Below, one piece after another: positions 27,416 to 29,197 of a DNA stretch of 64,000 nucleotides; position 1 is the stretch's first letter; the number at the start of each line of letters is the position of its first letter. The position numbers and the translations under genes were made by a program. This stretch comes from Nostoc sp. CMAA1605 (GTDB taxonomy: Bacteria; Cyanobacteriota; Cyanobacteriia; Cyanobacteriales; Nostocaceae). A model generated the notes under the pieces. It was not told the DNA's origin. It worked only from the letters and a program-made list of their open reading frames with translations, and made no database searches. The stretch is from contig NZ_PJIZ01000005.1 of NCBI RefSeq assembly GCF_021596505.1, positions 87,852 through 151,851 on the forward strand, written 5' to 3'.

Positions 27416-27498
27416 CTGACAAACAAAAACTTTTGTAAAACCAAATTGCAAAAGGTGGGAATTTGCAGATTATCTACTGTAATGCCACCTTTATCATC

Positions 27499-27644
27499 CT
27501 GACTTTTCACGTTATGTGGAAAAGTTAACGCAAAACCTAACCCCCTAGCCCCCTTCCCTACTAGGGAAGGGGGAAAAGTTAAAGCCTCTCCCCGTGTCGG
27601 GGAGAGGTTTGGAGAGGGGTTTTCCAGATACCGTGAAAAGTCAG
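27499..27644 (+). mobile_element. 146-bp MITE, copy 1 (10-bp TSD CTTTATCATC)
   Basis: TIR CTGACTTTTCACG...CGTGAAAAGTCAG; flanks 27489-27498 and 27645-27654 both ctttatcatc. Confidence 0.92.
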
Positions 27645-27661
27645 CTTTATCATCAATAAAC

Positions 27662-28912
27662 ATGAAAAAACGGATTTTTGGTGTAACAGTAGGTTTATTT
27701 GCTTTCGTGTTGGCGATAGTTATCCTGCTAGGACAGTTCAATGTTGTTGTCGCAGCACCTAATTCAGCAGTTTATGACAAAGCCAAGAAAGCACAAAGCG
27801 ATTTTTTGAGTAAACTAGAAACCCTAGTCAACATCGACTCTGGTACAGGTTATGAACCAGGATTAACTAAGGTTGAAGATATTGTAATTGAGCATCTGAA
27901 ATCTATAGGTGCAGAAGTTCAAACCATTAATGCCACTCCTAGCAAGGGAAGGAATATCTTAGCCACCATCAAAGGAACTGGTAAAGGTAAGATTCTGCTG
28001 CTTGCCCACACCGACACAGTATTTGAGGAAGGAACAGCCGCTAAACGTCCCTTCAAAATATTAGGTGGCAAAGCCTACGGTCCAGGAGTAATGGATGATA
28101 AAGGGGGAATTATTTTAGGGTTCGAGGCACTAAAAATTTTACAAGAATTACAGCTTCAGAACTTTGAAAAGATTACCTTTTTAATTAATCCTGATGAAGA
28201 AAAAGGATCATTTGGTTCACGGGAATTAATCAAAGAAACTGCTAAAAAACATGATGTGGCTTTGGTGTTAGAATTTGGTTCGCCTGAAGATAAAGTTACC
28301 TCATGGCGCAAGGGCATTGGTTACTACGGATTTGAAGTCCAAGGTAAGTCTGCCCATGCAGGGGCTGAACCAGAAAAAGGCTGTAATGCACTCGTAGAAG
28401 CAGCCCACCAAACTCTACAACTGAGTAAATTGGGTGATGCCAGCAAACAGACTAGTGTTAATTTTACTGTTTTTCAGGCAGGCGATCGCCGAAATACAAT
28501 TCCAGATTCTGCGAAAGTTCAGGCTGATGTGCGGGTACTCGAAGCCGAAGAATATAATCGCCTCGAACGGGATTTTACTCGCTTATCGAAAAACAAACTC
28601 CTACCCTGCACTGAAATCAAGGTAATTTCAGACAGAGGTCGTCCACCCTTTCCACCCAACCCCAAAACCGATGCTTTAGTGAAAAAAGCACAAGCTATTT
28701 ATCAAACAATAGGTTTTAAGCTAGGTGTAGAGGGTAGTGGAGGCGGTACTGATGGTAACTATGCAGCCTCCGTTGGTACAACCACACTTGATGCACTTGG
28801 TCCTGTAGGTGGGGGCGCACATAGTCCAGAGGAATATATTGATTTAGACCGCATTGCACCAAGAATTTACCTGCTTACCAAGCTGTTAATAGATTTAGGA
28901 AATGCCAGCTGA
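27662..28912 (+). CDS. M20 family metallopeptidase (glutamate carboxypeptidase-like), secreted
   Basis: Signal peptide; LLLAHTDTVFEEG, GPGVMDDKGGIILG, NPDEEKGSFGSRELI. Confidence 0.9.
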   Translation: MKKRIFGVTVGLFAFVLAIVILLGQFNVVVAAPNSAVYDKAKKAQSDFLSKLETLVNIDSGTGYEPGLTKVEDIVIEHLKSIGAEVQTINATPSKGRNILATIKGTGKGKILLLAHTDTVFEEGTAAKRPFKILGGKAYGPGVMDDKGGIILGFEALKILQELQLQNFEKITFLINPDEEKGSFGSRELIKETAKKHDVALVLEFGSPEDKVTSWRKGIGYYGFEVQGKSAHAGAEPEKGCNALVEAAHQTLQLSKLGDASKQTSVNFTVFQAGDRRNTIPDSAKVQADVRVLEAEEYNRLERDFTRLSKNKLLPCTEIKVISDRGRPPFPPNPKTDALVKKAQAIYQTIGFKLGVEGSGGGTDGNYAASVGTTTLDALGPVGGGAHSPEEYIDLDRIAPRIYLLTKLLIDLGNAS

Positions 28913-28997
28913 TATGGTGAATACCAGCTTTCAATATAGAGTGTTTGCAATTTAAAAAGCATCTCAAAGCAACCTTTTGGCTTGGTAATTCTAGTTT

Positions 28998-29143
28998 CTG
29001 ACTTTTCACGGGATCTGGAAAACCCCTCTCCAAACCTCTCCCCGACGCGGGGAGAGGCTTTAACTTTTCCCCCTTCCCTAGTAGGGAAGGGGGCTAGGGG
29101 GTTAGGTTTTGCGTGAACTTTTCCACATAACGTGAAAAGTCAG
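28998..29143 (-). mobile_element. 146-bp MITE, copy 2, inverted (10-bp TSD ATTCTAGTTT)
   Basis: Reverse complement differs from copy 1 at 3 of 146 positions by eye; flanks 28988-28997 and 29144-29153 both attctagttt. Confidence 0.92.
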
Positions 29144-29197
29144 ATTCTAGTTTCAGTCTTGCTACATCTTGTGAATTGATGGAAAAACACCTACTGT

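Follow-up and report, generated by a model that had tools for sequence, protein, structure and literature searches.

The window analysed here, a stretch of 64,000 nucleotides from Nostoc sp. CMAA1605, contains an intact M20-family peptidase gene bracketed by two short repeats in opposite orientation, which raises the question of what these repeats are, what moved them and whether the gene travelled with them. By aligning copy 1 with the reverse complement of copy 2, we obtained a gapless match with exactly 3 mismatches over 146 positions (98%). The features of the locus, in which the type-A IS is the insertion sequence described further below, are the following:

27489..27498: target-site duplication left of copy 1, CTTTATCATC, single in the empty site of G006
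27499..27644, + strand: MITE copy 1, 146 bp
27499..27524, + strand: left terminal inverted repeat of copy 1, CTGACTTTTCACGTTATGTGGAAAAG, 24 of 26 bases equal to the type-A IS end
27532..27623, + strand: core module of copy 1, two hairpins, AAAACCTAACC...GGAGAGGGGTTTT, common to other MITE families and of non-IS origin
27620..27644, - strand: right terminal inverted repeat of copy 1, reading inward as CTGACTTTTCACGGTATCTGGAAAA, 23 of 25 bases equal to the IS end
27645..27654: target-site duplication right of copy 1, CTTTATCATC
27662..28912, + strand: M20-family peptidase gene, intact, 416 aa, bracketed by both MITEs
28988..28997: target-site duplication left of copy 2, ATTCTAGTTT
28998..29143, - strand: MITE copy 2, 146 bp, opposite in orientation to copy 1, 143/146 identical
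29019..29110, - strand: core module of copy 2, the same two-hairpin module
29144..29153: target-site duplication right of copy 2, ATTCTAGTTT

Both copies have the termini CTGACTTTTCACG...CGTGAAAAGTCAG, and the 13-mer forming the MITE end is found in the window at the four element ends and nowhere else, which is more than chance would give. The positions given by a first-pass annotation, and the three differences that it had read by eye, are right to the base in the gapless alignment, and the two internal palindromes it described are both present. Each copy is also flanked by a perfect 10-bp target duplication of its own, as claimed (CTTTATCATC twice and ATTCTAGTTT twice). The terminal repeats are imperfect, as that annotation stated, but reach about 26 bp instead of about 25 bp. 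Its view that the element lacks coding capacity is right as far as a transposase is concerned, but the MITE is open in one frame and flanking ORFs can read through it.

By searching the window's own genome, we found about ten copies that are complete or almost so (131-168 bp, E 3e-71 to 4e-41), in addition to truncated and nested ones. The genome search proposed at first reading thus returns a multicopy family, and the boundaries of the two window copies hold in the multicopy comparison. All 13 genomes of the genus contain the exact 13-bp end, for which the reversed control gives hardly any matches, and 104 of the 193 genomes of the family contain the 25-bp end pattern CTGACTTTTCACGNNATNTGGAAAA, for which it gives none; an exact 33-bp search pointed to Trichormus sp. 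and Anabaena azotica as carriers. An Rfam search with the MITE gave no match, phage records gave none either, and no cyanobacterial paper was found when the literature was searched for the MITE sequences.

For the statistics of target duplications, 53 distinct elements of the family were taken from the own genome and its relatives (120-356 bp, with a mode at 146). A perfect duplication of 7-10 bp flanks 26 of them (10 bp, n=17; 9 bp, n=5; 8 bp, n=3; 7 bp, n=1), and 38/53 show 8-12 bp duplicated with no more than one mismatch, against none with a perfect duplication of at least 7 bp among 2756 cross-paired flanks. The duplications are thus mostly 8-10 bp with a mode of 10, so that the 10-bp length first noted is correct for both window copies without being a strict rule for the family.

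Several copies elsewhere have a history of their own. Two widely spaced end pairs considered as full IS were rejected, since G001:C1:276126-278083 is in fact two MITEs flanking host genes and G004:C1:1711006-1712871 a MITE interrupted by nested foreign insertions. In the latter contig (L112, 507-2372), the MITE has been broken up by elements nested in it that have CTACGGTGTACACACAAG ends; one of these encodes an IS4-like transposase, and the whole is an example of stacked small repeats. In an HlyD-like gene (L111, G001:C1, 527-672), the last ~50 codons come from a copy at its 3' end, so the insertion replaced the C-terminus. Longer variants (L021, L250, L258) have extra small repeats, for example of the CCACTGCGTTG...CAACGCAGTGG type, nested in the hairpin core.

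Copy 1 has a methionine-aminopeptidase-like (M24) gene on one side and, on the other, the M20 peptidase gene, whose start codon is 17 bp past it; copy 2 begins 85 bp past the stop codon. This placement, together with a very stable predicted fold (-81.9 kcal/mol, z -9.45) and terminator-like hairpins of both copies on one strand, would fit repeats kept as regulatory or transcript-processing elements (terminators, 5'/3' UTR structures) instead of selfish insertions. We consider this unlikely: the terminal inverted repeats by themselves account for part of the low energy, the terminator-like hairpins are as numerous as in shuffles (3 vs 2.4), the nearest relatives lack both insertions, and copies also sit within ORFs (L111 and the NRPS core of L014, see below). 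Very stable hairpins now stand in both UTRs, however, so that the insertions may secondarily affect the peptidase gene. The two copies are also mutually complementary over 146 nt.

As to what moves these elements, a plasmid search with the MITE ends gave repeated matches adjoining IS4-family transposases in Nostoc sp. HK-01, N. edaphicum and Halotia branconii. The IS on the Halotia branconii plasmid is 2094 bp long, has a 9-bp duplication and perfect 40-bp ends (CTGACTTTTCACGGGATGTGGAAAAGGGGAGTTGGTTCGC, starting CTGACTTTTCACGGGATGTGGAAAAG), and encodes a 473-aa transposase and a 133-aa ORF. The transposase matches NCBIfam NF033590 at 329.8 bits (cut-off 160), exceeds the cut-offs of NF049926 and of Pfam Tnp_DNA_bind and DDE_Tnp_1, aligns with the Tn5 transposase structure PDB 1mus (E 3.7e-41) and has the motif Y-x2-R-x3-E-x6-K at residue 339. 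As judged from these sequence matches, it is a Tn5 homologue, and the parent IS belongs to the IS50/Tn5 group of the IS4 family. The 133-aa ORF (L120, 4430-4831) is annotated in the Nostoc HK-01 copies too and has no Pfam or NCBIfam match.

Among the 193 genomes of the family, 28 have a match to this transposase at E<=1e-60, and the matches fall into two subtypes. Type A, to which the Halotia element belongs, is ~2.1 kb long with duplications of 9-10 bp, perfect in 12/21 candidates; type B is ~1.5 kb long, with CTGACTTTTCCCGTTAAGTCT ends and duplications of 9-11 bp. The MITE ends agree with those of the type-A IS at 24/26 and 23/25 bases, the interior of the MITE has no internal match to it, and the MITE duplications are in line in length with those of this parent. 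An autonomous IS with the same ~26-bp ends, which the annotation had suggested looking for, therefore exists in Nostocaceae, with 9-10 bp duplications and a Tn5-type transposase. Type-B ISs from different genera (L168, L172, L174, L175, L176, L178) have in common one in-frame TGA in the transposase, which, with perfect duplications in several of them, suggests recoding or a split transposase.

In the own genome, a protein search found no type-A or type-B transposase at E<=1e-10 and nothing over the NF033590 cut-off, in an assembly that is a 192-contig draft of 94% completeness, from which repeats can be lost. A close transposase is likewise absent from most genomes bearing the 25-bp end pattern. 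G002, of the same genus, retains a decayed 5' remnant of type A, with a transposase N-terminus 80% identical and an IS end, so the IS was once present in the genus. With 2/26 and 2/25 bases different between MITE and IS ends, the true partner could also be an IS still closer to the MITE and not yet sampled.

With type A missing from the own genome, the MITEs might instead be moved by another transposase, encoded by an IS with ends that only resemble those of type A. The 1.5-kb type-B IS (CTGACTTTTCCCGTTAAGTCT) is the obvious example, with the same first 10 bases and duplications of 9-11 bp. However, its ends diverge past base 10 whereas type A matches at 24/26, and type B is missing from the own genome just as type A is, which makes this explanation improbable, slightly more so than a regulatory role. 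The DDE_Tnp_1 transposases of the own genome were rejected as a source, since the ends of their elements (AGAGGGTGTTTGAAAAGT, CTGAGAGGGTGACAAG and CTTTCAAGGGTAGGGG) are unlike those of the MITE; the AGAGGGTGTTTGAAAAGT ends match another core-bearing MITE.

We therefore favour type A as the source of the transposase, and the two copies are very probably type I MITEs with ends of an IS4-family, IS50/Tn5-type IS of Nostocaceae around an unrelated two-hairpin core, mobilised in trans by the transposase of that IS. They are shorter than ~500 bp and multicopy, have no transposase ORF, and combine IS-like repeats with a matching duplication length and empty sites, as type I MITEs do. A type-A transposase produced by an IS in the same cell would bind the ~26-bp ends as it does its own, excise or copy the MITE and insert it at a cut with a stagger of 9-10 bp, giving duplications of mostly 8-10 bp; by analogy with Tn5, the chemistry is presumably cut-and-paste. 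Since no such transposase is detectable now, we infer that the type-A IS either resided formerly in this genome or entered it transiently. Two separate insertions of this kind would have placed the copies just upstream and just downstream of the peptidase gene.

The orthologous loci agree with this history. In G006 (95% identical) and G008 (85%) the peptidase gene occupies the equivalent position but neither MITE is there, and G006 shows each 10-bp target a single time. The two insertions are therefore independent and recent, as put forward at first reading. On this comparison, both are separate events that took place after the window lineage split from that of G006. The peptidase gene did not come in with the MITEs, and the layout resembles a composite transposon without being one. 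Inverted pairs of Tn5-type ends around a single gene are indeed the layout of Tn5, which speaks for a composite Tn5-like transposon moved as one 1645-bp unit. The copies have their own, differing duplications, though, the outer flanks are unlike (CTTTATCATC vs ATTCTAGTTT), and the gene stays in place in relatives that lack the MITEs, so that such a unit is refuted for this locus. Refuted as well, and least credible of all, is a local inverted duplication of one copy: each copy is the closest relative of the other (98%), but the similarity goes no further than the precise element ends, and the flanking duplication and empty site of one copy are distinct from those of the other.

What lies between the ends raises a question of its own. 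Internal deletion of an IS is the usual origin of a MITE, although it is not a requirement for mobilisation in trans. The interior here does not qualify as an internal deletion of the parent IS. It consists of a core of ~90 bp (element positions ~34-125) with two strong hairpins, CCCCCTTCCCTA-n-TAGGGAAGGGGG and CCTCTCCCCG-n-CGGGGAGAGG, which are 64% alike in inverted register. Searching the own genome with the full MITE also returned core-only matches, which run from query position 34-37 to 124-125 (one to 132), and the core palindrome is found 3-108 times per genome within the genus, with none for the reversed control. Thus, having no internal match in the IS and recurring elsewhere, the core is not a leftover of the Tn5-like IS. 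That the interior is a module common to unrelated MITEs had escaped the first reading, as had the lack of a detectable transposase in the own genome. Apart from the MITEs described so far, the core occurs in the own genome in the following forms:

End family (i): ACGC[CG][GA]TGTGCAACTT ends (ACGCCGTGTGCAACTT), 137 bp, AT-rich 6-7 bp duplications, in several relatives too
End family (ii): AGAGG[AG]TGTTTGAAAAGT ends, matching an IS5-family IS with five near-identical copies in the own genome
End family (iii): TTCAGTAATC ends, first hairpin kept, second different
Form (iv): bare cores, full or half

Complete cores from different end families are ~81-86% identical and have nearly equal boundaries. 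Finding the same core between unrelated ends indicates that these MITEs are chimeras of transposon ends around a common module, and the constant boundaries suggest that the module is a discrete unit. It could have come to lie between different ends through its own mobility, or abortive gap repair or recombination could have swapped the ends. We see about an even chance that the core, either mobile in its own right or captured again and again, has been loaded between the ends of at least three unrelated families (Tn5-like, IS5-like and ACGCCGTGTGCAACTT-ended with 6-7 bp duplications). The ACGCCGTGTGCAACTT-ended family had been considered a TA-target (IS630-like) one, which we rejected as more copies show AT-rich duplications of 6-7 bp; a search of plasmids for the parent IS of this family found none.

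One bare core lies in frame within an NRPS adenylation domain (L014, G000:C153, 127-216), where it encodes NPSPNLSPTRREASDVPPSLIGKGARGLG. At the corresponding site G006 has no core and ~15-18 other bases instead, so this core looks like a replacement and not like a simple insertion.

By comparing these elements with known systems, we found the closest likeness in IS50/Tn5, whose ends also begin CTGACT..., with duplications of ~9 bp and a transposase that has a Tn5-type DNA-binding domain, a DDE domain and the YREK motif. Two differences stand out. First, the MITE has just the ~26-bp ends, and the parent IS has the additional 133-aa ORF. Second, duplication length varies here, between 8 and 10 bp in the MITE and between 9 and 10 bp in the IS, whereas that of Tn5 is fixed at 9 bp. 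The core is reminiscent of REPINs, which are paired REP palindromes, in that it seems to be made of two inverted hairpin units and is dispersed and also found bare, but unlike them it lies mostly between transposon ends. In having one core in frame inside a protein gene (L014), it recalls the Rickettsia palindromic elements.

MITEs have been described in Nostocales before (Nezha; Anabaena PCC 7120, A. variabilis and Anabaena sp. 90; PMC10969869, PMC3542288), and like the present ones they are 100-300 bp long, multicopy, hairpin-rich and bounded by terminal inverted repeats, and sometimes open in frame. Those of Anabaena sp. 90 were classed as type II, and no IS of their genome matched them (PMC10969869, PMC3542288); in contrast, a matching IS was found here, outside the host genome. 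The family may overlap one in the list for Anabaena PCC 7120 (Wolk 2010).

A MITE of an IS4/IS50-type IS is thus a known kind of element, and the common core is the more interesting part, no report of one core common to unrelated MITEs having been found in the literature searched. An orphan family of cyanobacterial MITEs gains a concrete candidate transposase, with which mobilisation in trans becomes directly testable. One core between unrelated ends also bears on the origin of MITEs, usually credited to internal deletion, and clustering MITEs by their interior would merge elements moved by different transposases. If the reading of a mobile or captured core is true, Nostocales MITEs would arise from foreign ends combined with a common, host-tolerated core, and not by internal deletion of each IS.
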